Source: Lachnospiraceae bacterium | GTDB lineage: Bacteria; Bacillota; Clostridia; Lachnospirales; Lachnospiraceae | Assembly (NCBI GenBank): GCA_015056925.1 | Contig: SVFJ01000005.1 | Coordinates: forward strand, 1-64,000 | DNA length: 64,000 nt | Reading direction: 5' to 3' | Part shown: piece after piece, positions 27,511-56,430 of the stretch | Numbering within the stretch: position 1 is the first letter of the stretch | How the letters are laid out: each line of letters opens with the position of its first letter | Made by a program: the position numbers and the translations under genes | The notes under the pieces: model-generated | Databases searched by the model: none | What the model was told of the DNA's origin: nothing | What the model saw: only the letters and a program-made list of their open reading frames with translations

Positions 27511-27562
27511 CAATCAAAAGCGGGATTGAACGAAACTCCTTCAATCAAAAGCGGGATTGAAG
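27511..27562. repeat. Two near-tandem copies of TTCAATCAAAAGCGGGATTGAA, each a hairpin
   Basis: Copies at 27511-27532 and about 27539-27560; the second encodes FNPAFD-stop of cotJC on the minus strand. Confidence 0.8.
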
Positions 27563-28119
27563 GAGTAGAAGTTCTTAGAATCAAGCTCTTCCTGAAGAAT
27601 GCGCAGAGCCTCTCCAAAACGTTGGAAATGTACAATTTCACGTTCACGAAGGAATTTAATTGGTGCTGCAATCTCCGGTTCCTTGATTAATCGTAAAATA
27701 TTATCATAAGTAGTTCTTGCCTTCTGCTCTGCTGCCATATCCTCAAACAAATCTGTAATCGGGTCTCCCTTTGACTGGAACTGGTTTGCATTGAAAGGCA
27801 CACCGCCTGCCGCCTGAGGCCACAAACCAACCGTGTGGTCCACATAGTATTTATCAAAACCCGAACGTTCTATTTCCTCTATCGATAAATCCTTTGTCAG
27901 CTGATGTACTATAGCTCCCACCATCTCCAAATGAGCCAGTTCTTCTGTGCCGATATCCGTTAAAAGTCCTGCAATCTTTGGATTCTTCATGGAATATCTC
28001 TGTGAAAGATAGCGCATACTTGCGGCTAACTCACCGTCAGGACCACCAAATGTCACTAACATATAATTATTAACAAAGTTTCTTCCAGATAGATTTTGTT
28101 CGCTTGCCGACAATACCAT
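27541..28119 (-). pseudogene. cotJC: 3' portion of manganese-catalase-like spore coat gene cotJC, 5' end replaced by prophage sequence
   Basis: FGGPDGELAASMRYLSQRYSM...DIGTEELAHLEMVGAIV...KNFYSFNPAFD; N-terminal ~30 aa absent, upstream residues are frame-shifted endolysin 3' end. Confidence 0.8.
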
Positions 28120-28975
28120 CCGCAGTCAGTCCAAGCAGATGTTGCGCTTCTTTAATCAATGCAACATCTGCATCTGTAAGATATCCGTCAATCTGTGTTG
28201 CATCCGGCAAGCCTTCCTTATCTACTAACTTACCAAAGCGCCACAAATACCACAAGGCCCAGTTTGCATCATTTCCCATTGCTCCCACAGTCACATTACC
28301 TGTCGGTTCTGTGTATGGGTTGTATTCAAACGGAATCTCTTCAAGCATATTCTTGAATGACTCATTCTCAAACCACACATTCAAATCGACATATCCTCTT
28401 ACGCGTGGCAAGACTCCCTTAGAACTGTACTGCCAACCACTAAGTTCAAGATTCTTCGGCAAATTCTTTGTCACTGGAATATTATCCGCAATACTCTTTT
28501 CTGATACACTTGGATATCTTGCCCACCAGAATGGTATATCTGCAAGCTCTGACATATACTTTTTCAAACATGGTGTATAGAAACTTGCACCTGTGTAGAT
28601 AGCAAATCTCATTCCTGCCTGCTCTGCCGTGTGACGATATATGTTGATAATATCCAAGATTCCACTTCCAAGACCACGAATGCTTGCGTCCTCCAAGTCA
28701 AGAATCATCTGACTAATTCCCTGCGGAGCTGCCAACTCTACGAAAGAGGCAGATGCTCTCAATGCTTTTTCTTTTGTGTTCGCATAACAATAATTATACC
28801 CTGCAATTACAGGAATATTCGCATCCTTAAATCCTGTCATATGCTCATGGAATCTCTTGTCTGCTACATTACCTGCATTATTAACCTTAACGATGGCATA
28901 CTCAACACCCGCTCCTCTTAATGCATCATAGTCTTGAATCTCATTCCATCGAGATACATCTATTCCTTTTCTCAT
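28070..28975 (-). CDS. Endolysin: GH25-type lysozyme with peptidoglycan-binding-like C-terminus
   Basis: KGIDVSRWNEI, MILDLEDAS, C-terminal LLGLTADGIVGKRT. Confidence 0.9.
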   Translation of the reverse strand: MRKGIDVSRWNEIQDYDALRGAGVEYAIVKVNNAGNVADKRFHEHMTGFKDANIPVIAGYNYCYANTKEKALRASASFVELAAPQGISQMILDLEDASIRGLGSGILDIINIYRHTAEQAGMRFAIYTGASFYTPCLKKYMSELADIPFWWARYPSVSEKSIADNIPVTKNLPKNLELSGWQYSSKGVLPRVRGYVDLNVWFENESFKNMLEEIPFEYNPYTEPTGNVTVGAMGNDANWALWYLWRFGKLVDKEGLPDATQIDGYLTDADVALIKEAQHLLGLTADGIVGKRTKSIWKKLC

Positions 28976-29460
28976 GCTTTCTGCTCCTCCAGCTCATCCT
29001 CTGTCTCATTGTCCGGAAGCTCATCGGTGTACTTTCCAAGAAATTTTGTAACCATCTTCCATAATTTTTTAACTGGCAAGTCGCATAATGACATATTTTT
29101 TAGTGTGCTCACTACTTCATAACTAAGATATAAGATTCCAAATATCTCAACCAATCCAACCGTCACTAATGTTGTTTGTAAATACTCTCTCGCCTCTTCC
29201 GGCGCAAACTTAATCACAAAGCCAATTAAATTCCATCCTAACATCGAATCAATGATAGCCAAGAATACAAGCGAGGTAATCATTGCTATTTTTCTGATTG
29301 CTCCATCAATACCAACCGAAGAATTAAATTTCCTCTGTTTAATTGCTCTCCATATACCAAAAAAGGTATCCATTACTACAGTCAGTGTGACCATCTGAAA
29401 CACTATGTTGCTTGTCAAAATTGTTGCTAACTCCTTCATTTGTTTATCTCTCCTTTTCAA
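28972..29460 (-). CDS. Phage holin family protein
   Basis: TM helices, FGIWRAIKQRKFNSSVGIDGAIRK; ATGA overlap with endolysin. Confidence 0.85.
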   Translation of the reverse strand: MKRRDKQMKELATILTSNIVFQMVTLTVVMDTFFGIWRAIKQRKFNSSVGIDGAIRKIAMITSLVFLAIIDSMLGWNLIGFVIKFAPEEAREYLQTTLVTVGLVEIFGILYLSYEVVSTLKNMSLCDLPVKKLWKMVTKFLGKYTDELPDNETEDELEEQKA

Positions 29461-29469
29461 TATAAAATA

Positions 29470-29506
29470 AGAAAGAGATGCAGTCCTCTTCTCTGCATCT
29501 CTTTCT
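29470..29506. terminator. Terminator-like hairpin
   Basis: AGAAAGAGATGCAG...CTGCATCTCTTTCT 14-bp perfect stem. Confidence 0.7.
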
Positions 29507-29596
29507 ATTAATGTACCATATTAAAGTGTGTCATTGTATGTCAATATATCATTCAAAAGAGGTCATGAACATTTCTGTCACAACCTCTTTCTTCTC

Positions 29597-30000
29597 CTAA
29601 TAAGTAATTCCACATCTATGCAAATAACTTTCGTAGCCATAGCCTTCATTTGGAATATTCACTATTTTTCCAATTGCATACTGCTCCGAAGATATAGACA
29701 TTGTATCCAAATTAGGATATGGGATGTACATTCTTAATCCATCTACTGCTGCTGTATAAAATCTTTCAATAACGACTCCATTATAACACAATGAAAATTC
29801 TTTTCTTCTTGCAGTAGCATCTGGGTGTCTTATCGCCCATTCTTCATAAAATTTACCAGATTCACTGTAATCAATCTCTGAACCAACAATTGAAATACTT
29901 AAATCGTTTTTAAATACATATGTTGAATTCTCGTCATCATACAACCACTCGTCTGGTGTTGAGTTTGTTATCGTCTGCCAAAAATTATCATAAGTCATTG
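29597..30000 (-). CDS. Hypothetical prophage protein
   Basis: ORF from MTYDNFWQT with good RBS. Confidence 0.6.
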
Positions 30001-30098
30001 CTTCTTCTCCTTTCTTTTGTTTTTTGTTATATTTATTATATAACAATAGGCACGCAAACATCAATCGAACGCATTATGAAAAAAATGTAAAATACATT

Positions 30099-30494
30099 TT
30101 ATCCATTCCACCTTGCTTTGGTTTCTCTCACATCAATATGCGTGAAATTTTCATATATTCCAATGCCTCCCTTATTCGGCATTAAAGTATTGGCAAATGC
30201 TGCCACTTCGTTAGGTTTCACACCAGTGACTTTGATATCCGCTGCTGTTCCATACTGATGCTGTGAATATATTGTACCTTTAACCTTCTTATTGTACGGC
30301 GGTGTTCTATAAGCACTGTTAATCTTTACCGTTTTACCAAAATGGTCTCTGATACTCTGCAACACCTGTACCAGTTCTGGTGAAACAAATACTACATCAG
30401 ACTTATCCTTGCAAGCAAATTCTCTTACCAGAAAATTCGCAGAAAGCTTTTGTTTTCCCTGTTTTGATTTAGAATATACTTCTACTGTCATCTT
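30099..30494 (-). CDS. Peptidase M15-like D-Ala-D-Ala carboxypeptidase (second lytic enzyme)
   Basis: VKINSAYRTPPYNKKVKGTIYSQHQYGTAADIKV. Confidence 0.85.
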   Translation of the reverse strand, partial: KMTVEVYSKSKQGKQKLSANFLVREFACKDKSDVVFVSPELVQVLQSIRDHFGKTVKINSAYRTPPYNKKVKGTIYSQHQYGTAADIKVTGVKPNEVAAFANTLMPNKGGIGIYENFTHIDVRETKARWNG

Positions 30495-30550
30495 AAGTCC
30501 TCCTGTTATACTATTTATATTGCAAAATAATATAAAGTTTCTCATAAATA

Positions 30551-30578
30551 TTGTAATTATTAAAAATTATGATATAAT
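30551..30578 (+). promoter_or_regulatory. Putative sigma70-type promoter for plus-strand RNA
   Basis: TTGTAA-N16-TATAAT. Confidence 0.6.
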
Positions 30579-30642
30579 CAACTCGTATTTTGAAACTTGA
30601 CAACCAAATAGTGTTTCTTCAACTGAAGAGAAAGGGGCAACC

Positions 30643-30807
30643 ATGAAAAGATTTATTCGTAGGATTACACTACTCTTGGCCACAAAAAAGCATGATGCGT
30701 ATGAATTTCTAACGCAAAATGGATTCTTCGAAGAATTAGTTCGAGGAACTGTTAGGTTGATTTTCCTTATCATCATCTTCTACTGCTTTGACCAAGTAGT
30801 ATGGTAA
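30643..30807 (+). CDS. Possible 54-aa small membrane protein inside the ncRNA transcript
   Basis: MKRFIRRITLLLATKKHDAYEFLTQNGFFEELVRGTVRLIFLIIIFYCFDQVVW; AAAGGGG upstream of ATG; may instead be structured RNA. Confidence 0.4.
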   Translation: MKRFIRRITLLLATKKHDAYEFLTQNGFFEELVRGTVRLIFLIIIFYCFDQVVW

Positions 30808-31116
30808 TTAAAAGTCTTGGCCTAGTATACAACGGTCATATGTTGCATAATTAGCTAGGCTAAGACGCCACCACTAATTTACATGGACAACTTTTGTATG
30901 CGTACTTAACACCTGCAAGTCGTATTAACATTAGATGAAATGATTCTAACATTAATAACGGACGGATGAGTAACCCGTGAATAACCTACCTTATACCGAG
31001 TAATCGTCATTTGACTTTACTGGTTGTAAGTACTTGCTAAATGTTGGTTAAGTCCCATAACTAATGCTAGTAGCCTCGTATAAAAAGCAAGTTGCTAAAC
31101 ACTATTTGGTTTTATT

Positions 31117-31150
31117 AAGAAGGATAGCTTTTAGTTATCCTTCTTATATT
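31117..31150 (+). terminator. Rho-independent terminator of the 16S-like RNA
   Basis: AAGAAGGATA-N9-TATCCTTCTT then ATATTTT. Confidence 0.8.
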
Positions 31151-31208
31151 TTGCTACTCAGACTTCATTCTTTTCTATTTATTCTTAAATATGAATTTAG
31201 TTGAGTAA

Positions 31209-32951
31209 TTATAATCTTGTGATTTTATTCAACTCATTAATGACTGCATTCACAGTCATTTCAATAGCCTTGTCTGTTGTAAGATGTAAGCCGTCTGGAA
31301 TAATTTCAGCAATATTGTTATCATTAATACCTGATATTCTACCAACATTAAAACCCTTAAAACCCCACAATCCTGCAATCTCAACCAAAGCATCCCCATA
31401 CTGTACAGTTTGCAAATTATGATTATTTAACAAGCCGTAACTGTTTGTAAAAACCTCTCTGTTCGCCAATTTACCGAATGGCGCACCAACAGCTATAACA
31501 ACTGCATTAGGGAACAATTCCGTTACATTTTTGAAGAATTGATGACACGCGCCATAATATGTACTTGTGTCTAACTCGATTGCTCCCTCATCATTAAAGG
31601 TTATTTCCTTTGTCCCTAATTCTTTATTTCTCGACCAATCGTTAGCTCCAGCCTCAATAAAAATAATTTCTACATCACTAGGAACTGCAACACCAGTGCT
31701 TGTTACTTCTCCTGTATTTTCGTCAGTGACTTCTGAATATTGACCTAACAGCCTTTCTTGTGTACACATAGATGCTTCATCTTCATAGCACATTGCTGTG
31801 CCACCTACACCGCAATTAGTTGCATCAAATCCAAAGTATTCACTAACTCTTGTACACCACGTTCCTAACTGCGTAATGCTAGTACCAATCCATGCTACCT
31901 TTTTCCCTTGTAATGGAGATGTTAGTATTCCATACTCTTCTTTTAGTTGCTCTTTGGCTTTATCTGTCAATCCATCTGCAATATTGCTTTTAATCGCATC
32001 AAAATATCCCTTATTGATAATTTCGATAATCTCCGACTCTGTCATATCTGTTACATCAACAATTACAATATCCGAAATATTAATAGCCCCTATATTCCCA
32101 CTTTCTGTAAGTGCTCCGCTTATCAGAAAATCTATATTGGCGTAATTTTCGTCAGTTGGTGTCACAAGCACCGCCATTCTCTTTAATTCAAGCGATGTAT
32201 CTGTTGTAAGTAACTTTTTATCAAATCCGTACACAGTATTATTAGGTGCATCTGTAGTCGTTCCATCATATCTACCTGTTAGCAGCCAACATTGCGATGA
32301 TTCCTCTATTTCCTGTAGATTTACAGCAAACAAATATGTGTGATTTACCTCTACTGGCACAGTGCAAATGTAATTCGGATATGCCCCTGTAAACGTTCCG
32401 TCAAGAGTGATTGTTCTATCTTCGACTGACAAAACTGGTGTGACCCCTCGTACAGCATTTGTATGCCATGATGTAATCGGGAAAAGATTTTCAATAACAT
32501 CACAATCTGCTTTACTATCCAAATCAGTCTTTTTAGCAAGTGTATTGTCCTTAGCTAAATAGTCATTTACCTTGCTGTCGAACTCACTGTTAGTAACCAC
32601 GTCTGCAACTCTCTCTTTAATTTCTTCCCAAATCTCTTTGTGCGGAACTGCTATAGCATATGTATCCTGCTTAATAGATTCTCTGACAGTGATATTAACT
32701 CTTGAAGAAGCCAGTCCGTCGGCAAATACACCAATTGATACATTACCCTTCTTGAGCATATGTGCCGGAATGGTGCACTTATCATCTACTATATCAATAT
32801 CTTCGCTTGCTCTATTATTCCATACTACTTTAACCTGTACCGCTTTACCGTCCCATTCGTCATCGAGCACAAAGATTGCCTCATAATCGTTGTCTCCAAC
32901 GATTTCTTTCACATCACACTCAATGATTTTCTTTTCTACTATAAATTCCAT
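31209..32951 (-). CDS. Baseplate/tail protein with SGNH hydrolase domain
   Basis: KVAWIGTSITQLGTW...IIFIEAGANDWS...IPDGLHLT; BppU-like N-terminus. Confidence 0.8.
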   Translation of the reverse strand: MEFIVEKKIIECDVKEIVGDNDYEAIFVLDDEWDGKAVQVKVVWNNRASEDIDIVDDKCTIPAHMLKKGNVSIGVFADGLASSRVNITVRESIKQDTYAIAVPHKEIWEEIKERVADVVTNSEFDSKVNDYLAKDNTLAKKTDLDSKADCDVIENLFPITSWHTNAVRGVTPVLSVEDRTITLDGTFTGAYPNYICTVPVEVNHTYLFAVNLQEIEESSQCWLLTGRYDGTTTDAPNNTVYGFDKKLLTTDTSLELKRMAVLVTPTDENYANIDFLISGALTESGNIGAINISDIVIVDVTDMTESEIIEIINKGYFDAIKSNIADGLTDKAKEQLKEEYGILTSPLQGKKVAWIGTSITQLGTWCTRVSEYFGFDATNCGVGGTAMCYEDEASMCTQERLLGQYSEVTDENTGEVTSTGVAVPSDVEIIFIEAGANDWSRNKELGTKEITFNDEGAIELDTSTYYGACHQFFKNVTELFPNAVVIAVGAPFGKLANREVFTNSYGLLNNHNLQTVQYGDALVEIAGLWGFKGFNVGRISGINDNNIAEIIPDGLHLTTDKAIEMTVNAVINELNKITRL

Positions 32952-32962
32952 GCTCTTCCTCC

Positions 32963-33148
32963 TTACTCATCTTCATTCTTTACAATGCAATCCTCATATC
33001 CATTCTGTACAAGAATTGCATCTGTTTCCGTTTGATATCTCTGAGCCTTGTCACTTACAAGAAAATAAGCCTCATATTTTTCCTGTGCAGCCTCGACTCC
33101 TCCCTTATCTTTGGCATCCGTGATTCTCATAGCAATCCACTTACTCAT
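32963..33148 (-). CDS. Small prophage tail-region protein
   Basis: 61 aa ORF in packed operon. Confidence 0.6.
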   Translation of the reverse strand: MSKWIAMRITDAKDKGGVEAAQEKYEAYFLVSDKAQRYQTETDAILVQNGYEDCIVKNEDE

Positions 33149-33521
33149 CTGTTGCCTCTCCTTCCTCTGTTAAAATGTAATCAAAAAGGAAGCTCTCGAA
33201 GGCATTATTTGTAGCCTCTAAAGCTTCCTTTGCTGTCGCTAATTCTTTTTCTAACAATTCCACCTTTTGACCGAGCGTCAGACTGTTTTCCGGCTTCGTA
33301 GCTTCTCCTACTGATGTCGAAAAAACAAAGCCATCTGCAAAGCTTTCCTTGATTACTTTATAATCTGAATAATCCCCTAGCTTAGTACCTGCATCGCTAT
33401 ACACTATGAATCCGCTCGTATTTGAAATAACTTCGTGCATAAATGTCACTCTGACATCATTGTCATTCTTTTCCAATACACATTCATATTTCACGTTTGA
33501 ATCCTTAAATACAATATACAT
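33141..33521 (-). CDS. Hypothetical prophage tail-region protein
   Basis: Packed operon. Confidence 0.65.
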   Translation of the reverse strand: MYIVFKDSNVKYECVLEKNDNDVRVTFMHEVISNTSGFIVYSDAGTKLGDYSDYKVIKESFADGFVFSTSVGEATKPENSLTLGQKVELLEKELATAKEALEATNNAFESFLFDYILTEEGEATDE

Positions 33522-33537
33522 CTATCTTTACCTCCTC

Positions 33538-33921
33538 TTATACTGCAAGGATTTGACCTGTTACAAGATGCACCCTGAAAGATGATACATCGGAATGAAC
33601 ATTAAGAACTGCCTTATCCCCTTCTCCATCACTATTTGTCCCGGAAGCATCGGATGACAGCGAACATGATAATATGCCCGTATCCGGATTATACGATTTG
33701 ACAAGCGATGAGGATGAGGTTGCGCTAGGACTTCCTGCTCCCCATTCATACCCGGTTTGGGTAATCTCACAATTTCCCGAGCAATTAAGGCATGTCGCTT
33801 CAACAATAAAATTATCCTCTGTCAGATTTTCGTATCCTGCAATATCTGATACATCAAATGTCCGTCCGTTCCCTAAACATATAACCTTACAACCGCTCAC
33901 GGCATTAGTACGTCCTACCAT
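33538..33921 (-). CDS. Hypothetical prophage tail-region protein
   Basis: Packed operon. Confidence 0.6.
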   Translation of the reverse strand: MVGRTNAVSGCKVICLGNGRTFDVSDIAGYENLTEDNFIVEATCLNCSGNCEITQTGYEWGAGSPSATSSSSLVKSYNPDTGILSCSLSSDASGTNSDGEGDKAVLNVHSDVSSFRVHLVTGQILAV

Positions 33922-33922
33922 C

Positions 33923-34735
33923 TTACCCTGCCTTTCTTATACACTGAATCGTTGGTATCGTGATTGTAGCTGTTGGTTTCGTGTTGGCATAAATATAGAC
34001 TGCATTAGTTACGCTTGTTGCTACAGGTGCTAATATCCCCTCATTGCAATCTGCGACACCAAACATAACATTCGGTACATAATTAACATCTACACCGGAA
34101 CAACTAACAGCTGCTCTATACGGATAATCTGCATAGGTAGAATCCGGTACCCATGAAGCAGCAAGAACTGATTTGTTTACAAATGTTAATATCTGCTTCT
34201 TCATCAGCAAAGCATCGACAAGATAGCCGTCCTCTGTCAAGGCGCTAAGCTCTGTGAATGTACTAATCGAAAGATACGGTTTCGTGATTATTGGTACATT
34301 ACTCTCAAAGTTCGTAATGCCGGAGCTGGCAGCTCTGTATGTTGCAACAGGCATTTCCCATATTCCATTTACATGGTTTATTTCCTCATCCTGTTCAAAA
34401 TCACTGGTGTTCCACTCGGAACTTGTCGCAAAAGTTGCAATCCGCACAGGCTCCTCATCATTCTCTAATTCAAGAACAATGCAAACATATCCATAATAAG
34501 ATACATTATCTACAGATGGTATCGTTGCATAAATGGTATGCTCTGCGATTTCAAACAATCTGCCACGAATAATTCCGTAACCTGCATCAATATGCAACTG
34601 ATTACTTCCTACCCAAGTAATGTCACATCCGTATATTATTCCATTCTGCTGCCTTGTCAGTAAATCGTACAAAACAGCATCATCCTTGGGAGATACTGTA
34701 GAGCCGTTATACTGCTTCAATGTAATATTTCCCAT
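33923..34735 (-). CDS. Phage structural protein, baseplate region
   Basis: DAVLYDLLTRQQNGIIYGCDITWVGSNQLHI. Confidence 0.65.
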   Translation of the reverse strand: MGNITLKQYNGSTVSPKDDAVLYDLLTRQQNGIIYGCDITWVGSNQLHIDAGYGIIRGRLFEIAEHTIYATIPSVDNVSYYGYVCIVLELENDEEPVRIATFATSSEWNTSDFEQDEEINHVNGIWEMPVATYRAASSGITNFESNVPIITKPYLSISTFTELSALTEDGYLVDALLMKKQILTFVNKSVLAASWVPDSTYADYPYRAAVSCSGVDVNYVPNVMFGVADCNEGILAPVATSVTNAVYIYANTKPTATITIPTIQCIRKAG

Positions 34736-35788
34736 TTACTTCTTCCTCCTTTTTAATTTCTTTGTCAGCTCTCTTCTGACTGCGCCATACACCAGTTTGA
34801 CTGTACCTTTCCTGATTTCCATACCTGTAAGAATCGTCTGATACTCCTTTTTCTTGTGTAGCACCACTGTTTCTTGTCCGATGCTCCACTCTAAAGGCTT
34901 TACCAGTTCATCATCAGCAAGCAATGTTATTTCAATCAGATTGTCATATTTCTCAGGTGTAAGAGTCTCTACTGCTTCCAGCAGAGCCACATCCTCAAAC
35001 ACCTCATCATCTCCAACCGTTACCAACTTCGTTTCAAACACAACAGGAGTGATGCGCTGTGCTTCTTCAATATCGTTTCCTATTGTTCCATTAACAGCCA
35101 GATAGTACGATAACCGTTCTGACGGATTCTCTTCGTTCACGACAATCAGTTTATTCAATGCCTCTTCATTCTTTTTGATTGAAACCTCTTTCTCAATCAC
35201 ATTCGGGAGGTCAGCTTCAATGTATCTAACCCCAGCCCTCTTGCAAAGGGAAATAGAAATAGTCTTTCTCTGTACATCAACATCTGCATCCACAACAATA
35301 TCGTGATAAAGCAAAGCATTGACCATAATCTCATATAAATTCGATATACTTTCTGTAAGACCTAATGTCTTTATGCCTATCGTTGAGCTTTCTGCACTAA
35401 CAGATAGCCCTGCTATATTCTGCAATTTGTCATCACTGGATACATATATTTCAGTAATAATATCCGCAATCCACTGCTCCACAGATGTGCTCTCTTTTTT
35501 CAATACCTCCAAATCTGCGTAGACATTAACATCGAAGAGTGAAAGAATTGGCTTATACTCAATCACTCTCTTGGTGTCCGAATCGGACACCCCATCAACA
35601 ATTCCGCAAAACCGTTGACTGCCTTTGGATATTCTTATGAAATCCCCTCTCTCAGCCTTTACTCCTTGTAGTTTGATTTTCTTTTTTGATAATGCCAAAT
35701 AATCGAACTCATACTCTATCTCAGACACTTGCATGCCGGAACGATATGCGAACTCTTGCGTGAAGATTTCAATATTATACAGATTCAT
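34736..35788 (-). CDS. Siphovirus tail/baseplate protein (Gp37-like)
   Basis: Position and size between Dit and baseplate; IRISKGSQRFCGIVDGVSDSDTKRVIEYKPILSLFDV. Confidence 0.7.
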   Translation of the reverse strand: MNLYNIEIFTQEFAYRSGMQVSEIEYEFDYLALSKKKIKLQGVKAERGDFIRISKGSQRFCGIVDGVSDSDTKRVIEYKPILSLFDVNVYADLEVLKKESTSVEQWIADIITEIYVSSDDKLQNIAGLSVSAESSTIGIKTLGLTESISNLYEIMVNALLYHDIVVDADVDVQRKTISISLCKRAGVRYIEADLPNVIEKEVSIKKNEEALNKLIVVNEENPSERLSYYLAVNGTIGNDIEEAQRITPVVFETKLVTVGDDEVFEDVALLEAVETLTPEKYDNLIEITLLADDELVKPLEWSIGQETVVLHKKKEYQTILTGMEIRKGTVKLVYGAVRRELTKKLKRRKK

Positions 35789-36596
35789 ATTCTATCTCAG
35801 CCTCCACCGATATATTGATTGCTTCTGACGACTCATGCATAAAAGAAATCTTATTCACTCCACTTTCAAGTAACAGAAAACGTTCTGTGGAAAAGTCTGA
35901 TTTGTCATATACATCCTTTACCAACTCATTTCTTACTGTGCAAAGTTTGATACTGTATGGTATCACTGTAGAATCAATGATTAATTTGTATCCATCCTCC
36001 ACGGTTACATTCACTTTACCGTCTGCCTTTACTTCTCCATTCAAATAATGGATATATGACGGATTCGTACACGGTCCAAATATACTAATTCTAATACCTG
36101 ACTCCATTACACTATCAGAATCCACAATTACGGTACCGCTTGCGGCATCATAATATGCATATGGATAAGCCAAGGGATATGCCTTTCCCTCACTGTCTGC
36201 ACTACGGAAATTCTGTCTCTTGACCGTCTTATAATATGTACCAAGGCTCTTCATCGTTATATTGGAATATAAGCCACCTGTCGCAAGCTCTTTCTTTTCA
36301 AGCTTATCAATACTCACTCTGATTCGATATTCTTCCCCGATGTTATACACCAAGACCAAAGGCTTGTATTGTATAAACATTACAAACTGTCTGTATTGCT
36401 CATAATCAGTAAAGCATATCTTTCCTTTGATTTGCTTTTGAGCAAGCACATCCTCTTCCGGCATATATCTCGTACCTGCTCTGGTGTAGCTTGCCTTGCG
36501 TTCCAGTCCAAGTCCTGACACATCATGAAAAAAGGACCTGCTATCGTTCAGGTCCCATTTCTTACCTAAAGAATTTATTAATTGAAATCGTCTCAT
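35775..36596 (-). CDS. Distal tail protein
   Basis: RRFQLINSLGKKWDLND..., located between tape measure and baseplate genes. Confidence 0.75.
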   Translation of the reverse strand: MRRFQLINSLGKKWDLNDSRSFFHDVSGLGLERKASYTRAGTRYMPEEDVLAQKQIKGKICFTDYEQYRQFVMFIQYKPLVLVYNIGEEYRIRVSIDKLEKKELATGGLYSNITMKSLGTYYKTVKRQNFRSADSEGKAYPLAYPYAYYDAASGTVIVDSDSVMESGIRISIFGPCTNPSYIHYLNGEVKADGKVNVTVEDGYKLIIDSTVIPYSIKLCTVRNELVKDVYDKSDFSTERFLLLESGVNKISFMHESSEAINISVEAEIEYESV

Positions 36597-39500
36597 TCGT
36601 ATAAATCCCCCAGTTCTCTGTTAATCTTTGCCGTAATACCGCTCATATCAACAGAATTAATTGCATAGTCAACAGCCCCTTGTAACGCATCTTTGATGAG
36701 GTCTTGTCCTTCCAAGACACCTTGTGCAATACCTTGTGGCATCGAATAACCTACTGCCACAAAAGATGCCGATGTACCTTCTTCGCCAATCTGCAGAGCT
36801 TCATTTGCTCCATCTATGGATGCAGTGCAAAGTTCCTGCGTTGTTGCTTTCAGCTCTGGTGCCTTCGCAACCAATGTAACATTCATATCATCCATTCCGG
36901 CAAGCGCAAGAGCTAAAGCCTCATCATATGTTCCTGTAAGGGATGTGATAATGTCTTTACCTAATGCGTCTGCTTCTGCTGTAATCAGTGCATTTTTGTC
37001 TGACTGTGCTAAAAGAATGGAATCCATCGACTCTGTATATCCGGCTTCCAATGTTGCCAATGTATCTGTAAGACTTTCTTTCGCCTCACTCATAAGCGCC
37101 CATTCACCCATCAAAGAATTGAATGCCTGTGTATCTGTCTGCGCTGTTGTAACGAGTTCATGTAAGTATCCTGCGCCGTCAATGCCAAGCTCCTTGAATG
37201 CCCCAAGCAAACCTTCATCAAGAAGTCCCTGTTCTGCAAGAGCTGTCGCCAAGAGTAAATCGTGCTGATATGTGTAAATAGTCGCTGTCTGCGACTGCAA
37301 AGCGGTTATCATTTCCTGCGCACTTTTCTCAGACGTAACACTCAGCTCATCAAATAAAGATATCTGTCCTGATAATGTCTTGTCTGCTTCCTCATAAGCC
37401 TCCTGATATGCTGACTTCACTTCCTCAACACTCTTAACAGTCTCCTTAGAAACCTCTTTGACTGTGCTTTCATACTTTCTCATAGACTTGTCAAAGTTCT
37501 CAGTACTCGCCTCCATATCCATGGCCTCTGTAATCTTCTTGGCCAGTCTGTCGGCTTCGTCAGACATCTCATCATCTGCATCCGACTGCACCTCGAGCAA
37601 GTCATCCATAGTCTCAGAATAACCCTCTTTGATATCTGCCATTGTGTCAGCGAGATTATCCTTAGCCTCTGTCATAAGTGCCCATTCATTCATGATGGCA
37701 ACGAATGCGGCGGTATCTTCCTCTGCTGCCAATACCAATTCATGCAAGTAAGCAGCACCTTCTACACCAAGAGCCTGTATTGAACCAAGTAACCCCTCTT
37801 CCATAAGACCTTTTTCTACAAGCTTTGCTGCTATCTGCATATCATTCTTGTAAGTAGTCATTACAAGCACTTGTGACTGTAGGCTCTTAGCCATATCTCT
37901 TGCTGTCATATCGGATTCAAGGCTTAACTCCTCAAACAATCCAATCTGACCGTCTATAGACTTCACAGCCTCATTGTATGCTGTCTGATAAGATTCTGTG
38001 ATGGTATCAATATTACCGGATACCTCACTTGATACCTTATGCATCTTGCCCTGGTACTCTACCTCTACTTTGGTAAGAGACTCCGTGCTCTCCTGCATTT
38101 CTTCTTGTGCAGACTGTGCCTCTTCCATCTTGACCTTTAATTCTTCATATTCCGTCTCAAGCTCTGCTACGAGGTTCTTAGAATCATTGAGAGACGGTTC
38201 AAGGTCAAGCATCTTTTGATTGTACTCAGCGATTGCTTCTGTTGCATGTTGTCCGAGTTCTTCATTGAACTCTCGCATAGCAGTCTCGCCAGCTTCGCAA
38301 GCGGCAGCCCAGTCTTTTTGAAGCTCTGCAGACTTCATAGAATACTCATTATATTCCTCTTCAATCTTGATAAGGTCTGTCTGAGCATCGTACAGCTCTC
38401 TATAGACTTCCTCTATATCCTCCTGCATAAACTTCAACCGGAGAGATTCTTCCATATTGCTGATGTAAGACTCCAACTCCGCATTCGTCTGAGAAAGATA
38501 TCCGCTCTCTTCCTCAATCGCAAGGTTTAACTCCGGCAAAGCTTCGTTCAACTGGTCGACCAGCATCTGCATCTTGGTTTTTTCTTCGTTGGTAAGAGAT
38601 TCTTGCTCATTCAGTTCCAAAAGCTCATTCTTCATTCTTTCAATCAAAACAAGCTCTGCCGCTTCACTCTTCTGTGCATTCTCTCTTTCAGCTACAGAAT
38701 CCCTAATAAGCTGATTGCTCTCGCTTATCTCCTCTGCGAACAACTCTGTCTCTGTCTTTGCAGTTGCAGTCTTAACCGCATATGTCGCAAGTGCGGCTGT
38801 AAGACCCACAATCGCTGTCACAAGCATTCCTGCCGGATTTGCATTCATAGCTCCATTCAAAGCCCACTGTGCAACTGTAGCACCTTCATTCGCCGCCTTA
38901 TATGCCTTCCATGCATTCATAGCAGTGGTAATCATCGGAGCAACTGTTCCGTGATAAACTGTTGCCGATGTTATACCAGTAATACCAGCGATAACTAAAT
39001 CCGAGTTATCCATAACCCATGTCAAACCATCAATTAATGCCGGAAGCGCATCCTCAGCAAAATCAATCGCCCCTGCTGCCGCTTCGTCAAGAGCCTCTGC
39101 AAAGTCATCCATAGCCCTGCCAAGCTCTCCACTCTCTAAAGACATCTGTAAATCATTAACGCTGTCGTTTGCTTCATCAACACTATTTTTGAGTGTGCCT
39201 TCTATCTTGTCATATGCAGTGATTGCAAGACCTTCCAGTGCTGACTCTAAATTATCTAACTTACCAGTCAAGTTTGCCGACATTGTATCTGCCATGTCCT
39301 TAGCGGCACCGTCACAACTATTAATCTGTGCATACAGGTTGTCAAACTCATCACCGGTACCCTTTAGCAACGCATTTACAGCAGCAATATCCGTCTTATT
39401 GAAAATGGTACTAATAACATTAGACTTCTCAACTGCTGACATATCAGAAAGCGCATTGTTCATGTCAACCATGATATCATTCAGATTTCTTATCTGTCCG

Positions 39501-40813
39501 GAGCTGTCTGCTACCTCGACACCAAGGCTCTTCAATGCCTTGGCTCCAACATCTGTCGGAGATACCAAGCTCAAGATTACATTTCTAAGATGTGTACCAC
39601 CTTCCGCTCCCTTGATACCATTATTCGCTAGAACACCAAGCTCTGCATTCATGGTTTCCAATGGCTGATTTGCCAAAGATACCGTACCTGCACATACAAG
39701 AGTTGCTTCTCCAAGCTGTGCCACACTGGTATTTGACTTCTGAGAAGTCTTTGCCATCTGGTCTATATAGCTGTCAAGCTGTGATGTTTCCATTCCTAAA
39801 GCAGCCATTGCATCTGTTACAAGGTCAGAAGCATAAGCCAAATCCAAACCGCCTGCTGCCGCAAGGTCTAACACCCTCGGCAATACCTCTGCTGACTTTG
39901 TGGCATCATATCCGGCTAATGCAAGATAATTCAATGCCTCTGCTGCTTGGCTTGCGCTATACTTTGTAGCAGCTCCGCATTCCTCTGCTGCTGTCTTTAA
40001 TGTCTCATAGTCCTTACTCCCCTCGGCAATCTCTTGGGCTGTCATTCCCATGGTAGCAGCAACTTGACTCATGGAAGACTCAAAAGATGAACCAAGAGTA
40101 ACTGTCGACTGCGATACTGTCTTAATGCCATCTACAATCGCATTCACACCTTCTCTGATGATATCCGATGCCAGATTTGCCTTAAGTACATCTCCGAATA
40201 CAGATGTCTTCTCGCTTGCATTTTCAATCTCAGTCCCCATTTCCTTAATGGACTCAGTATTGTCTTCTGTCGAAAGCTGTGCCTGCCTTAATGCATCTCT
40301 GTTCTCTTCCACCTCAGAGTTCAGATTGTTAAGCTCTACCTGCGCATTATTCAATGACGTTTTCCAATTTGCTGTAGAGTTCTGCGCTTTCCTGTATCCG
40401 TCTTCCGCAAGAGAAAGCTTCTGTCTTAACTCTTCAACAATCTTCTGCTGTGCATCCAAAACTTCGTTGGATATCTTGGTGTTTGATGCCATTGCATCAT
40501 ATTCCTCACTCGCTTTTGCAAGTGCTGTCTTTAACTGACTTACTTTTTCTGCTGCCTCATCCTGCTTTTTGCCGGACTCCTCAACCGCCTTGGTATATAT
40601 ATCTACCTTATCTGCCTGTACCTGATACTGCTTGGATAAGATATCCTGTTTCTTTGTCAGAGCCTCAACTGAATCCTGCTGTTTTCCGAACTCGGAAGTA
40701 GCAAGCTTCATCTCTGAGCGCAATTCTTTCTGTTCAGCATTAATATTTTTAAGGGCTTTCCGATATTCCGCTTCGCCCTCTAATACGATTTTTGCACCAA
40801 TTTTGTTTGCCAT
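36593..40813 (-). CDS. Tail tape measure protein
   Basis: 1406 aa coiled-coil, TMP core (SQAAEALNYLALAGYDATKSAEVLPRVLDLAAAGGLDLAYASDLVTDAM). Confidence 0.95.
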   Translation of the reverse strand: MANKIGAKIVLEGEAEYRKALKNINAEQKELRSEMKLATSEFGKQQDSVEALTKKQDILSKQYQVQADKVDIYTKAVEESGKKQDEAAEKVSQLKTALAKASEEYDAMASNTKISNEVLDAQQKIVEELRQKLSLAEDGYRKAQNSTANWKTSLNNAQVELNNLNSEVEENRDALRQAQLSTEDNTESIKEMGTEIENASEKTSVFGDVLKANLASDIIREGVNAIVDGIKTVSQSTVTLGSSFESSMSQVAATMGMTAQEIAEGSKDYETLKTAAEECGAATKYSASQAAEALNYLALAGYDATKSAEVLPRVLDLAAAGGLDLAYASDLVTDAMAALGMETSQLDSYIDQMAKTSQKSNTSVAQLGEATLVCAGTVSLANQPLETMNAELGVLANNGIKGAEGGTHLRNVILSLVSPTDVGAKALKSLGVEVADSSGQIRNLNDIMVDMNNALSDMSAVEKSNVISTIFNKTDIAAVNALLKGTGDEFDNLYAQINSCDGAAKDMADTMSANLTGKLDNLESALEGLAITAYDKIEGTLKNSVDEANDSVNDLQMSLESGELGRAMDDFAEALDEAAAGAIDFAEDALPALIDGLTWVMDNSDLVIAGITGITSATVYHGTVAPMITTAMNAWKAYKAANEGATVAQWALNGAMNANPAGMLVTAIVGLTAALATYAVKTATAKTETELFAEEISESNQLIRDSVAERENAQKSEAAELVLIERMKNELLELNEQESLTNEEKTKMQMLVDQLNEALPELNLAIEEESGYLSQTNAELESYISNMEESLRLKFMQEDIEEVYRELYDAQTDLIKIEEEYNEYSMKSAELQKDWAAACEAGETAMREFNEELGQHATEAIAEYNQKMLDLEPSLNDSKNLVAELETEYEELKVKMEEAQSAQEEMQESTESLTKVEVEYQGKMHKVSSEVSGNIDTITESYQTAYNEAVKSIDGQIGLFEELSLESDMTARDMAKSLQSQVLVMTTYKNDMQIAAKLVEKGLMEEGLLGSIQALGVEGAAYLHELVLAAEEDTAAFVAIMNEWALMTEAKDNLADTMADIKEGYSETMDDLLEVQSDADDEMSDEADRLAKKITEAMDMEASTENFDKSMRKYESTVKEVSKETVKSVEEVKSAYQEAYEEADKTLSGQISLFDELSVTSEKSAQEMITALQSQTATIYTYQHDLLLATALAEQGLLDEGLLGAFKELGIDGAGYLHELVTTAQTDTQAFNSLMGEWALMSEAKESLTDTLATLEAGYTESMDSILLAQSDKNALITAEADALGKDIITSLTGTYDEALALALAGMDDMNVTLVAKAPELKATTQELCTASIDGANEALQIGEEGTSASFVAVGYSMPQGIAQGVLEGQDLIKDALQGAVDYAINSVDMSGITAKINRELGDLYE

Positions 40814-40821
40814 ACTGCCTC

Positions 40822-41055
40822 CTAGAGTTCTGATAGTTTCGCCACTGGTTTTGGCTCATCTGTAACATACAGGCATCTCTTCGTTTCAAAATTGTAGATA
40901 CGCTTATGTACTTCGAACATATCAACATACCTGCCAAAGTAAAGCCTGCCTGCTTCCTTAAACGAGAATCCCAGCCTATTCATGGCAGTATAGTAGATAT
41001 AATCAAAATCAATCTCTATATCCTGCTCATTGTTGCTAGGCTGGGATTTTATTTT
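40822..41055 (-). CDS. Tail assembly chaperone -1 frameshift extension (GT-like)
   Basis: Open -1 frame IKSQPSNNEQDIEIDFDYIYYTAMNRLGFSFKEAGRLYFGRYVDMFEV... after A_AAA_AAA_TAA. Confidence 0.75.
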   Translation of the reverse strand, partial: KIKSQPSNNEQDIEIDFDYIYYTAMNRLGFSFKEAGRLYFGRYVDMFEVHKRIYNFETKRCLYVTDEPKPVAKLSEL

Positions 41056-41420
41056 TTTATTTCAAAGCACCTGCGCAATTCTTCGTGTATATCATTTGCT
41101 AATGCTCTGTAATCTCTTGTAATCACATTGAGAAGCTGTCTGCGTGATAAATCTGTATATTCCGTGTGATTCTCTTCTCTGTCAATTTCAATCCCTTCAA
41201 GGACCATCAATGTCAATCCGAATGTAACAGCTCCAATATCCGGTTCTTTAGGTAATCGCTTTATTTCCTCCCCAACAGTAACCTCTCTAAAAGGGACAAT
41301 CCTCTTCTCAAACTCTGCCACTGTTCCATATTCCTTCTGTATGGCTTCCAGAACATTCAGATTACACTTAACAGGAAGTTCTATGCTCTTTGCGAGCTTA
41401 ATCTTTGATAATTGAATCAT
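41049..41420 (-). CDS. Tail assembly chaperone (G-like)
   Basis: Position between major tail protein and TMP; ends at slippery heptamer. Confidence 0.75.
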   Translation of the reverse strand: MIQLSKIKLAKSIELPVKCNLNVLEAIQKEYGTVAEFEKRIVPFREVTVGEEIKRLPKEPDIGAVTFGLTLMVLEGIEIDREENHTEYTDLSRRQLLNVITRDYRALANDIHEELRRCFEIKK

Positions 41421-41472
41421 ATTACCTCCAACAAGGCAGTGGGTTACCCCACCGCCACTACTTAAGCAAATA

Positions 41473-42027
41473 CTATTCTGTAATATTCAGATAATCCTTA
41501 ATGAAGGCAATCGCTTCATCCTCAGTTTTGAACCACTGCTTCACTCTCCACTCTCCATCCTTATCTGATGAAGCTACACCGGTAAGTGATGGTGTCTTAA
41601 ATGTGATATTCTCACCCTTGGTCTCATAACTGTCAGCAGTATCCTTAAACTTAACCTTTGGTAAAACTGCTGCGATATACTTCTTTTCACCATCATCATC
41701 AATCTCGCTTGCGTAGAAACCATAGCCAACAAAATTAGCTGTATCTGAATCCTTGTATACCACCTTGCTAGTCGCTTCATCAACAGTATGGCCAAACATA
41801 ACGTTTGCAGCCTTTAAAGGTAACTGAGTAACCTGAAGCTTAACATTTGCAAATTTAAACTCTGAATGGTCGATAACAAGCTTATTGTCGCCGTATACCT
41901 TCGCTTCTCCATACTGTGGGTCAACATCTGTTCCCACTGCTGTTCCGCACTTAAATCCGTCTGAATATGTTCCTGTTTTTACATCCAACTTGGAAATGTA
42001 TGGATGACTTAATCCATAATGTGCCAT
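41473..42027 (-). CDS. Major tail protein
   Basis: phi13-type (AHYGLSHPYISKLDVKTGTYSDG). Confidence 0.85.
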   Translation of the reverse strand: MAHYGLSHPYISKLDVKTGTYSDGFKCGTAVGTDVDPQYGEAKVYGDNKLVIDHSEFKFANVKLQVTQLPLKAANVMFGHTVDEATSKVVYKDSDTANFVGYGFYASEIDDDGEKKYIAAVLPKVKFKDTADSYETKGENITFKTPSLTGVASSDKDGEWRVKQWFKTEDEAIAFIKDYLNITE

Positions 42028-42040
42028 TATAATATCCTCC

Positions 42041-42424
42041 TTAATGTTTATCTGTGTAATTCATCTTAAATACTGTGCACCGAGAACGCTTATTACTTGT
42101 AGCACTCTGCGTAACACTTTCATAAGTTGTTTCCAAGAATGAAAACTTGCTTGTAATCTGAAAGCCTCTGCTCTCAAAATACTCTCCTGTCCTGCGTTTC
42201 AACTCATGGTAGTTGAACTCCTTGGGTGTATGCATCCGAAGTTGTATATAAGCTGTATCGAACAAGGGCCTGTCATCACCAAATTGTGTCGGTGTTTCAT
42301 CCTCATAAGAAAATGTAAAGTAAATATCTGATTCATCATCCTCGTAAATATCCTCTGCAACAGGATAGCCTATATGCTCACTAAACTCTGTTACAAATAA
42401 TTCATTAAGATTCATCCCTTGCAC
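42041..42424 (-). CDS. Tail terminator/completion-like protein
   Basis: Gene order. Confidence 0.65.
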   Translation of the reverse strand: MQGMNLNELFVTEFSEHIGYPVAEDIYEDDESDIYFTFSYEDETPTQFGDDRPLFDTAYIQLRMHTPKEFNYHELKRRTGEYFESRGFQITSKFSFLETTYESVTQSATSNKRSRCTVFKMNYTDKH

Positions 42425-42887
42425 CTGTCTTTCTGTTGTATACTTCCTGCATCTTTGTCATGGATGCGCTCCTTGTCTGATTCACCAATCTTTGTAAGAA
42501 TGGCCGAGCTGGTTGCCTACCTGCAACACCATATTCAATCCATATCATCTTGAGTGAATTGGAAATCTTATATTTCCTCATCTTCTCTCCTTTTCCTTTT
42601 ACTGAAAATGAATTGATAGAGCTGTATCCGGTAGGTCTTACATGTACCATCCATGCACCATTTTTAGCCTTTTTCGGCTTGGTTGCTTTAATAGAATCAA
42701 TAAGTTCTCCTGATAACTCATGGTTATCCTGACGAAGTATGTCTTTCATATTGTTTTCAAGAATAGGCGCAGTCTCTTGCAGAGCTTCAAAACAGATATC
42801 ATCCGCATCTGTCTGTAATAGCTCACTTAAGAAATCTTCGGGAAAATCCATCTCAAATCCTGCCATCAGCTTGTACCTATCTTGCAA
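42405..42887 (-). CDS. HK97 gp10-like protein
   Basis: Gene order; RPFLQRLVNQ. Confidence 0.75.
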   Translation of the reverse strand: MQDRYKLMAGFEMDFPEDFLSELLQTDADDICFEALQETAPILENNMKDILRQDNHELSGELIDSIKATKPKKAKNGAWMVHVRPTGYSSINSFSVKGKGEKMRKYKISNSLKMIWIEYGVAGRQPARPFLQRLVNQTRSASMTKMQEVYNRKTGARDES

Positions 42888-43198
42888 TATAATTCGATAT
42901 ACTCATGCTTATCGTCTATGTCATTGATATCCTCAATGTCATATATCTTCCCAGCATATTTAACCTTCATCTTTGTGTTATACTCTGTCTCTGAGTATCT
43001 GATGAGAAAACGAATTGAATTAATGCTGATATCTGTATCTGCTACCTCTTTCTCCTTATCCTTGGATGAGCTTCTTTTCGTATACTTCGCCCAACATTTT
43101 CTAACAGATACCAATTCTCTTCCAAAGCCCTGCTTATCCGGCTTGGAATACTTCAATATCTCAATTCGCTTGTTCAGTTCTCCCGGATTAATATTCAT
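42866..43198 (-). CDS. Head-tail adaptor/head closure protein
   Basis: MNINPGELNKRIEILKY...; gene order. Confidence 0.8.
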   Translation of the reverse strand: MNINPGELNKRIEILKYSKPDKQGFGRELVSVRKCWAKYTKRSSSKDKEKEVADTDISINSIRFLIRYSETEYNTKMKVKYAGKIYDIEDINDIDDKHEYIELYCKIGTS

Positions 43199-43207
43199 AC
43201 ATGCCTC

Positions 43208-43516
43208 CTATACATAATTTGCACTATGCATGTTTAAAATGCTTGATACCGTCTGATTCGTGTAACTCTTGCCGACGGTAAATGAACGGTTGTCATGCAT
43301 ATCCTGGCAAAGTACAAGGACAGCAATCGGAAACTTGGCATAATCATCCAAGGTCTTTCCCTCAATACCTTCCTCGTACTTTGGAATATGCGTATAGTCA
43401 GCAACGTATTCTACCGCCGCATCCAGAATCATCTGCATTTGCGTCGGTTCATACTCATCCTCTTCCAGTTTAAGGAACTCAGCTACATAGGGGACCGTAA
43501 TCTCACTTACCTTCAT
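43208..43516 (-). CDS. Head-tail connector protein (gp6-like)
   Basis: LKLEEDEYEPTQMQMILDAAVEYVADYT. Confidence 0.8.
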   Translation of the reverse strand: MKVSEITVPYVAEFLKLEEDEYEPTQMQMILDAAVEYVADYTHIPKYEEGIEGKTLDDYAKFPIAVLVLCQDMHDNRSFTVGKSYTNQTVSSILNMHSANYV

Positions 43517-43541
43517 GCCTTACCTCCTTAAACCAACACCA

Positions 43542-44702
43542 CTATGATGCAGACTTCATATCAAGAGCAGCAATCATCTCTGCATTCTGCACCTTTGCAT
43601 CAAGTTCAACGAAACCAAGAACCTCAAGCAAATGTAAACGTGCCTTTGTCTCTCTTAATACCTCAATGTCGATATCCTCTGAAATCTTAACAGCAAGCCC
43701 CTTGTAATCTCCGTAGAAGATTGCTCTTGCACCTGCTGCCATCTTAGGCATTGCATCAGAAATGCGTACATCCTTGCCAAATAAGGTGTAACCCCATTTA
43801 GCTGTTGCATCCTTCTGTAACAGATAGTTACCCTGACCATCCTTAAGCTTACGAATATGCTTTCTGGTATCCTTATTCATAATCCAGTAAGCATTTGCCT
43901 GATATCTGTCTGGTACAGACTCCTGTAAATCAATAAGTTCATCTGCTGTGATAGCAGTTTCGGAAGCAGCTTCTACAATCTGTGTTACTCCACTTAACCC
44001 CTCAATCTTGCCAGATGTACCAATCAAAAGTTCATGCTCTAAGAATAAAGCAATTGCCTCTGCCATCTTACGAATAACATAGTTCACGATATCGAACTTA
44101 CTGTTATTAATAAGACTCTTAGAAATATCTGTGATAGCTCTCGCAAGATATTCCTTAAGTTCAATGCTCTTGAATTTACCTGATGTGCTGCTTCCGTCAA
44201 CACCTTCTGTTGCATAAGTCATAGTAATTGCACCTGATGATTCATCGTAGTATGGCAATGACAATGTACCTGCTACGGTATAATGCTCCGAATCTGCAAA
44301 GATAGGGCAAATCTCCTTAGTCTTCTCGATAATCTTATTGGCGATTGTAGTTGGAATAATTGCCCCATTTTCGCCCTTTGCCATTGTCACATCGGCTCTC
44401 TCTTCTACTACACCTCTGATAAAGCTCTCAAAAGCTCTCTCCTCTGCTTTCTCCTGCTCTTCCTTGGACTTATCGCCCTCATCAGAACCTGCATCTGTTC
44501 TGTCTTCCTCTTCAAGAAAACCTCTTGCTCTCTCTTCTGCCTCGATGGTTGCATCAATCGCCTTAATCTGCTTCTCGTAATCGCCGAACTTCTTAACCTC
44601 ATCTTCATTCATGGCTCTTTCTTCTGCCTCTGCCTGCTCTAACAGCTTCTTTGTCTCTGCCATCAGCTTTGCTCTCTGCTCTTTTAATTTCTTAATATGC
44701 AT
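43542..44702 (-). CDS. HK97-type major capsid protein
   Basis: N-terminal delta-domain-like coiled coil; AYWIMNKDTRKHIRKLKDGQGNYLLQ. Confidence 0.92.
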   Translation of the reverse strand: MHIKKLKEQRAKLMAETKKLLEQAEAEERAMNEDEVKKFGDYEKQIKAIDATIEAEERARGFLEEEDRTDAGSDEGDKSKEEQEKAEERAFESFIRGVVEERADVTMAKGENGAIIPTTIANKIIEKTKEICPIFADSEHYTVAGTLSLPYYDESSGAITMTYATEGVDGSSTSGKFKSIELKEYLARAITDISKSLINNSKFDIVNYVIRKMAEAIALFLEHELLIGTSGKIEGLSGVTQIVEAASETAITADELIDLQESVPDRYQANAYWIMNKDTRKHIRKLKDGQGNYLLQKDATAKWGYTLFGKDVRISDAMPKMAAGARAIFYGDYKGLAVKISEDIDIEVLRETKARLHLLEVLGFVELDAKVQNAEMIAALDMKSAS

Positions 44703-44740
44703 CTTTCTTACCTCCGTTTTTGTTTAATATAAAAAGCTGA

Positions 44741-45331
44741 CTAAATAGCCAGCTTCTTTAACCTGTTCTTATACTCCGCATTGTCATACGTCTTTTTCTG
44801 ATTGTCGATGATATCCATATCATCATCAAATGCTCTGCACTCTAATTCTAATACTTCATCATCAGCTCTACACTCTACACTTGTAGCCGAGTATACCGGA
44901 GTCTTATTAACCACCAGCGTAATATGGTCCAAATCAAATCCCCGTACATGACGTAACGGTAACTGGTCGGCTCTCTCCTCGATTTTGTCCTGAATCCTAC
45001 GCATACCAAAGGACCAACCTTTGATTTTACCCTGCTTTGCCTCTGCAATCGTGTTCGCATCTGTAATTTCAGCCTTGGCATATAGACCGATGCGGTCTTC
45101 TTTTAGACTCAGAGTATTCGCTCTGGTCTCTGCAAGGACACAGCCTGCATCATGGTCCTTTGTCATCGGCACATTCTCAGCTCTTGCAAGAGCGTCTGCA
45201 AATGCTCGCTCTTCAATCACTTCGATTACCCTCTGACCTTTGGCCGTAATCACAGGACGGCTAGGCTTGCCCGTCACATTAACGTACCCGGTTATCTCTA
45301 AGACACCGTCAGCTCTCACTTCCACTTTCAT
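44741..45331 (-). CDS. HK97-type prohead protease
   Basis: ERAFADALARAENVPMTKDHDAGCVLAET...KGWSFGM. Confidence 0.88.
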   Translation of the reverse strand: MKVEVRADGVLEITGYVNVTGKPSRPVITAKGQRVIEVIEERAFADALARAENVPMTKDHDAGCVLAETRANTLSLKEDRIGLYAKAEITDANTIAEAKQGKIKGWSFGMRRIQDKIEERADQLPLRHVRGFDLDHITLVVNKTPVYSATSVECRADDEVLELECRAFDDDMDIIDNQKKTYDNAEYKNRLKKLAI

Positions 45332-46574: not shown

Positions 46575-46584
46575 TTTCTGCCTC

Positions 46585-48853: not shown

Positions 48854-48908
48854 TTTGGGAATATTTTACAAATGAATCCTTGCTGTAGGTGTGGAGCGAT
48901 TCTGTATT

Positions 48909-49306
48909 TCAAAATGCCACATCCCCGGGGGGAGTTTGTTCAGCAATTATGCGCTTTACAACCTCTATCGGTATCTCGAAATTGTCACACATTTTGTGGT
49001 GCATTTCGCACACTGTCAACAAGTTATCATTATCCAATCTTTTTTCATAATTTTCTTCTATTTTTTCTGCATGATGCACAGAGATATTTATATTATTTAA
49101 TATCTTTTTTGTACCATAGAGATTGCGAATGCATATCTGACACAAGTAGTTGTCTCTCTGCTTAATCTCTTCTCTCTTCTGCTGCCATGCAGATGTATTT
49201 CTGAATCGGTCTGCTGCCGAATCTTTCTTCTGTATCTTCGCAGGTCGCATACCGCAATCATAATCACTTTTATGTACACGATTGCAATACTTACATGACT
49301 TTAACA
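48909..49306 (-). CDS. HNH endonuclease
   Basis: RDNYLCQIC...ISVHHAEKIEE...LDNDNLLTVCEMHH; start approximate. Confidence 0.85.
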
Positions 49307-49398
49307 TCTCTTCCTCCTGCACATAGTAAAAGGCACTGGGTTCTGTTCCCAATGCCTTATCTCTATGCTACTAATATACACCATTGTTATGTGCCATT

Positions 49399-49857: not shown

Positions 49858-49961
49858 ATGACACCTCTTTATATATCAATTTTCTCCCATTTGTGATATA
49901 CTTAACGTGTCGTTAGGACATTGCTTAACTTTGGTCGGTGGAGCAATGTCCTTATTCATTT

Positions 49962-51218: not shown

Positions 51219-51220
51219 AA

Positions 51221-56426: not shown

Positions 56427-56430
56427 CATA

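Follow-up and report, generated by a model that had tools for sequence, protein, structure and literature searches.

Only a few gene-intervening elements are known to be excised during sporulation, most of them in Bacillus and Clostridioides difficile. Here we describe a prophage that splits cotJC, the gene of the spore-coat manganese catalase in the cotJABC operon, in a Lachnospiraceae genome; the window, meaning the whole stretch of DNA that was analysed, is 64,000 nucleotides long (positions 1-64000 of the 69,936-bp contig C179, from a 3.50-Mb genome in 183 contigs), and the far end of the element lies just beyond it. As described in the accessible portions of the papers cited in this paragraph, SPbeta in spsM of Bacillus subtilis (SprA/SprB) is excised both for the lytic cycle and for spore development, its recombinase being made in growth and a small protein of the recombination directionality factor (RDF) type acting as the timing factor (PMC4191935), and skin-Cd in sigK of C. 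difficile (CD1231/CD1234) also has a recombinase made in growth, with its RDF under a mother-cell sigma factor (PMC5025042). Further cases are gin in gerE of Bacillus cereus (GirC/GirX), a 28.6-kb non-phage element with three recombinases, among them a serine recombinase with an accessory factor (PMC5595907), and the prophage-like yin in yabG (Clostridium botulinum), vfbin in spoVFB and vrin in spoVR, which likewise occupy sporulation genes of the mother cell (PMC10747680, PMC4191935). Across these portions the interruptions reported are in sigK, spsM, spoVFB, spoVR, gerE and yabG, and none is in cotJC. A search of the full text of the open-access literature, with subscription papers and preprints outside its scope, returned no cotJC intervening element (one C. 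difficile paper places a CotJC homologue next to phi027, as a neighbour and not an interruption), and the element is thus probably new to the literature.

Like SPbeta, the cotJC insert is what appears to be a complete temperate phage lodged in a mother-cell gene of the spore envelope, has a large serine recombinase (LSR) and would restore the gene precisely on leaving it, although the cotJC case is known from sequence alone and differs in its target and host family. Three of the features that define a gene-intervening element are present: a sporulation gene is interrupted and has its two parts at the ends of the element, the element brings its own recombinase, and excision would rebuild the reading frame. 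The host genome carries homologues of spoIVA, spoIIID and sigE/sigK.

A preliminary description of the locus had recognized, on the minus strand, a good CotJC from GGPDGE to the C-terminus that lacks its first ~30 residues, had placed an attachment junction at about 28.04-28.08 kb, and had predicted the 5' part of the gene, with cotJA/cotJB and a large serine recombinase beside it, beyond 64 kb. All of this was borne out (coordinates in Table 1). The open reading frame (ORF) at 27541-28119 begins CotJC at residue 32, and the Mn_catalase profile (PF05067, positions 23-199) matches it at C179:27580-28068 with E 7.5e-41. Ahead of GGPDG the same ORF reads the 3' end of the endolysin gene out of frame, as had been proposed, together with an arm of the phage attachment site. 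Searched genome-wide, the profile finds exactly two pieces, this one and C179:66250-66345 (profile 1-32), and a 197-aa CotJC query gives the identical result; neither search returned a second complete cotJC from the assembly, which is 96.6% complete. The two findings that the description had held would speak against it, a complete copy elsewhere and the want of a flanking 5' end, thus did not materialize, since the 5' part sits at the other end of the element, directly behind cotJB, cotJA and a GerA-family gene. Over the cotJC stop codon (window 27511-27562), a 22-nt stretch, TTCAATCAAAAGCGGGATTGAA, occurs twice with a short spacer.

The break falls between Gly31 and Pro32. A scripted join of the two flanks at the 4-nt core GGTC gives a frame of 197 codons reading ...AQVIISQFGG/PDGELAASM... 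(the slash marks the junction), and the reciprocal product, attP, is TATATGTTAGTGACATT-TGGTGGTCTG-AATGTCACTAACATATA, a perfect 17-bp dyad (17/17) around a 10-nt centre. The dyad is kept with small changes only in the att arms of two phages of the same genus (G435 and G449). A short common core and an attP that is dyad-symmetric, unlike attB, are what is expected of a large serine integrase. In G435 the LSR adjoins the 3' and not the 5' part of cotJC, which shows that both orientations of the element are possible.

The recombinase is intact and contains all three domains of the phiC31/SprA type within the usual length of ~450-600 aa: resolvase catalytic (PF00239, E 7e-27), Recombinase (PF07508, E 1.8e-26) and zinc ribbon (PF13408, E 3.5e-5), the last at 24.5 bits, slightly below the cut-off of 25.3. 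It matches the integrase family phrog_95 with E 5.9e-113. Upstream of it lies TTGACA, and no CATAnnnT motif was found in this region. In eight other genomes or phages, LSRs 48-67% identical to that of the window all lie in cotJC, at the same codon. The sequence itself shows that the phage integrated into cotJC through its LSR. Targeting of cotJC does not extend to the whole clade, as the more distant L042-L052 (42-48% identical) have no cotJC in the fetched flanks, and those inspected are located elsewhere. One IMG/VR contig (L077) with an identical LSR was set aside as evidence of excision, as it ends right after the LSR.

We consider it probable that this phage lies in cotJC as an element whose excision in the mother cell restores the gene. 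A complete temperate siphophage has integrated via the LSR into the invariant GG31/PDGE35 codons, leaving cotJC split in vegetative cells. During sporulation, a small directionality factor made in the mother cell under sigma-E/sigma-K control (the candidate of Table 1, by homology) would switch the constitutively made recombinase to excision, whereupon attL and attR would rejoin at GGTC to give a whole cotJC before it is needed, and the forespore would retain the prophage. This is the logic of skin-Cd and SPbeta, in which a recombinase expressed in growth is paired with an RDF under mother-cell sigma control (PMC5025042, PMC4191935), and in its LSR and RDF-candidate homologue the window phage possesses the parts of an SPbeta-like system.

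The setting in which this proposal is best judged is the family as a whole. Among 397 Lachnospiraceae genomes, 245 carry cotJC, and 115 of these were re-searched to list the pieces of the gene. As counted from the piece lists, at least 85 of the 245 have a split cotJC in which both sides of a site are represented by pieces, and about half of the 38 species in the window's own genus have it split. There are four break sites, A to D, after about residue 31, 65, 137 and 177, all within stretches that are invariant among 47 intact proteins (GGPDGE, TEELAH, AAEQKAR and HFQRFGE); aligned with intact relatives, the joined protein of the window contains all four. Each site has LSR families of its own, those at site A forming one similarity group and B, C and D being served by others. 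Several genes hold two serial inserts, as in G253 (A and B), G349 (B and D) and G456 (A and B), so that a single mother cell would have to complete several independent excisions. Sizes vary widely: where a single contig holds both ends (64 elements), 26 elements fall below 4 kb, many of these short ones consisting of little more than an LSR, and 10 reach phage size (30-45 kb). It seems quite likely to us that cotJC is a standing hot spot for "DNA introns", with at least four sites in four invariant catalase motifs used by different recombinase families, sometimes serially, and at site A a continuum from full phages, such as that of the window, to vertically inherited elements of ~2.5 kb that retain a recombinase and a directionality factor and hardly any cargo, or none. 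The four sites, the serial elements, the sizes down to ~2.5 kb and a target that encodes a coat enzyme rather than a sigma factor all distinguish the cotJC elements from skin-Cd, and unlike gin, as the accessible text describes it, the short ones have about one-tenth the size and a single recombinase.

A coat gene is split in at least about a third of the sampled cotJC-bearing members of a dominant family of gut spore-formers, and in such species cotJC will be reported as absent or damaged by annotation pipelines. The reduced elements suggest a route from phage to developmental switch, along which the recombinase is retained together with a small protein expressed from a mother-cell promoter, and the collection offers many ready-made sets of LSR, att sites and RDF candidate for the study of recombination direction.

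Several loci in the survey depart from the common pattern. G265, at first counted among the smallest elements (L112, G265:C1:413751-417693), is a diverged cotJC copy whose 1.7-kb insert holds a transposase-like ORF; an LSR could not be detected in it, and the locus was set aside. The apparent split in G037 is a frameshift. In L267 (G434:C124) the 5' and middle parts of cotJC lie on opposite strands ~3 kb apart, by inversion or misassembly. In L269 (G447:C11:8444-14820), and also in G445, an intact cotJC is followed ~5 kb downstream by a second copy of residues ~170-197, and LSR-like sequence separates the two; the locus may derive from a site-D element that carried a 3' end of its own. Three short elements encode proteins with a Spo0A C-terminal domain (PF08769; L116 4389-4901 in G253, L111 1333-1668 in G350 and L120 1261-2067 in G030), two of them without a receiver domain, and these might tie the elements to the initiation of sporulation.

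The principal alternative, to which we give a real but minor share of the probability, is that of an ordinary prophage in a conserved and dispensable gene, with cotJC inactive in lysogens and restored on phage induction alone. The full set of structural and lysis genes in the window would suit this, as would the placing of all four sites within motifs invariant in the catalase, a pattern to be expected of integrases that choose conserved DNA, the intact cotJC paralog kept alongside in some species, and the imperfect promoter of the window RDF candidate (see below). Against a dispensable gene, however, at least 69 of the 85 clearly split genomes show no intact cotJC, and yet 46 of 47 split genes joined in silico form a single open frame (G155 is the exception).

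A further argument for restoration by excision comes from relatives of the window phage in which the element is inherited vertically. Within one genus of 25 species (that of G321), which includes several single-contig genomes, most species have one cotJC paralog split at site A, and all 15 species examined share the order cotJA, cotJB, 5' part of cotJC, an LSR that faces it, an RDF candidate in divergent orientation and the 3' part of cotJC, with every one of the 15 LSR ORFs intact. The element measures 2.5-3.4 kb in the 12 species with both cotJC parts on one fetched stretch, save for a 9.3-kb tandem array in G469. For 12 of the species, pairwise Nei-Gojobori estimates of the ratio of nonsynonymous to synonymous substitution rates (dN/dS) are 0-0.06 for joined cotJC (pairs with dS < 0.9) and 0.06-0.12 for the LSR; five of the in silico joins mentioned above that are still clumsy (G416, G033, G323, G201 and G310) were left out of the dN/dS set. 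The closest cotJC pairs differ by 0 nonsynonymous against 8-13 synonymous changes, and the 5' piece alone is nearly unchanged across species. Cast as trees, cotJC and the LSR have 6 of 9 splits in common (with shuffled labels, at most 5 and on average 0.2). At another site, G012 and G337 share a site-C insertion with dN 0 at dS 0.16. By these measures both cotJC and the recombinase are under purifying selection in the G321 genus, which runs counter to an ordinary prophage, at least in these relatives as distinct from the window phage itself. Low dN/dS in a split gene and in its recombinase, with largely agreeing trees, would not be expected unless the gene is rejoined and put to use, and the simplest reading is that this happens in each spore generation.

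Two loci are unusual in form. In L244 (G469:C9:2056097-2066967), the array mentioned above, the site-A element is tandemly repeated together with cotJA, cotJB and the cotJC 5' part, giving two 5' parts and three LSR-RDF copies ahead of one 3' part. In L251 (G452:C23:248007-251833) an intact cotJC precedes an RDF-candidate gene, what remains of an LSR start and a residual piece of cotJC, which looks like an element that decayed after the germ-line gene became whole.

What might time the excision is suggested by a conserved ~50-aa protein (~52 aa in the G321 genus, 80 aa in the window phage) that accompanies the LSR in site-A elements, with one homologue each in other phages and LSR relatives. 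A profile of these small ORFs from short elements matches the window protein with E 4.4e-8 (6.7e-21 on iteration). The family has no Pfam hit and no match in the phage collection and matches weakly one PHROG, 26314, of unknown function, which sets it apart from the SPbeta system; its co-occurrence, size and promoter make it the best RDF candidate. Upstream of 10 of 16 such genes, at a distance of 28-38 nt, stands CATAnnnT, which matches the -10 element of sigma-E/sigma-K promoters, against 0.5 expected and with none of 2000 shuffles reaching 10. In the G321 genus the promoter, AAACArGTACAAT..TGTCACATACATTTTA, lies 30 nt ahead of the start codon and shows essentially no variation in 14 of the 15 species, even though the proteins behind it are only ~40-70% alike. 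Its AAACAr resembles the SpoIIID box (consensus from PMC5025042), and in the AAACArG core the element recalls skin-Cd. Together with purifying selection, this conserved sporulation-type promoter strongly supports mother-cell excision in the short relatives. The analogy to skin and SPbeta drawn in the preliminary description has thereby gained comparative support, in that short elements with the same recombinase family persist in cotJC across many species of one genus, where selection on cotJC and the LSR is purifying and the RDF-candidate promoter near-invariant.

Several considerations weigh on the other side. The frame comes back whenever a precise site-specific integration is undone, and an in-frame join by itself is therefore uninformative about development. 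The RDF role is read solely from co-occurrence, size and promoter. Some short elements carry truncated LSRs, which suggests that some lineages have lost excision. The window prophage looks complete and may be excised mainly in the lytic cycle. Finally, its RDF candidate has CATAGTTA ~35 nt upstream of the start, in the position of CATAnnnT in relatives and with one mismatch to that -10; the sequence match to a mother-cell sigma promoter is thus present in the short relatives and is imperfect here, and for this reason we grade developmental excision of the window phage no higher than likely.

That the fragments are remnants of a dead, decaying gene is very improbable: broken recombinases in some elements and the lack of an open frame in joined G155 would fit, whereas the joined frame of the window has its full length and regains the motifs around the junction, the LSR is intact, and selection is strong in the vertically inherited cases. 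An assembly artefact joining phage ends to cotJC pieces is conceivable in a draft of 183 contigs and next to negligible, given that both ends lie on one contig, that the reconstituted attP is a perfect dyad, and that the same arrangement recurs in the single-contig genomes G282, G319, G391, G271, G458, G468, G459 and G473.

Table 1. Features of the split cotJC locus and its prophage (window positions unless marked as contig)
Feature	Position	Strand	Remarks
cotJC 3' part	27541..28044	-	residues 32-197 plus stop codon; lacks its own start codon; from ORF and in silico splice
Attachment core GGTC, cotJC 3' junction	28041..28044	-	phage arm TATATGTTAGTGACATT just beyond, towards higher coordinates
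Prophage in cotJC, 38.2 kb	28044..64000, continuing on contig to 66254		
Endolysin, glycosyl hydrolase 25	28070..28975	-	PF01183, E 2.8e-21
Holin	28972..29460	-	PF05105, E 2.1e-16
Tail tape-measure protein	36593..40813	-	PF10145, E 4.5e-44
Major capsid protein	43542..44702	-	PF05065, E 2e-45
Portal protein	45309..46574	-	PF04860, E 1.1e-42
Large terminase	46585..48270	-	PF20441, E 1e-33
Candidate RDF, 80 aa	58642..58884	-	homology to small ORFs of short cotJC elements
cI-like repressor, putative	59859..60299	+	helix-turn-helix N-terminus; name from sequence only
LSR, 488 aa	contig 64720-66186, beyond window	+	points at cotJC 5' part
cotJC 5' part, residues 1-31	contig 66252-66345, beyond window	-	ends in core GGTC, then phage arm AATGTCACTAACATATA
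cotJB	contig 66345-66629	-	CotJB, PF12652, E 3.3e-25
cotJA	contig 66617-66808	-	

Judged by its gene content, the insert is a complete siphoprophage. It is distant from sequenced phages, the best DNA match being 65%, over the terminase, and the closest LSR in the phage collection 40% to its own. Besides the LSR it encodes a second recombinase, a tyrosine recombinase in mid-genome (window 49962-50978; PF00589, E 2.9e-28). It also has a ParB-domain protein with a ParA-like neighbour and a protein of the Rep ORF2/G2P type (window 52840-55295 and 57191-58078), with which the phage might also replicate as a plasmid.
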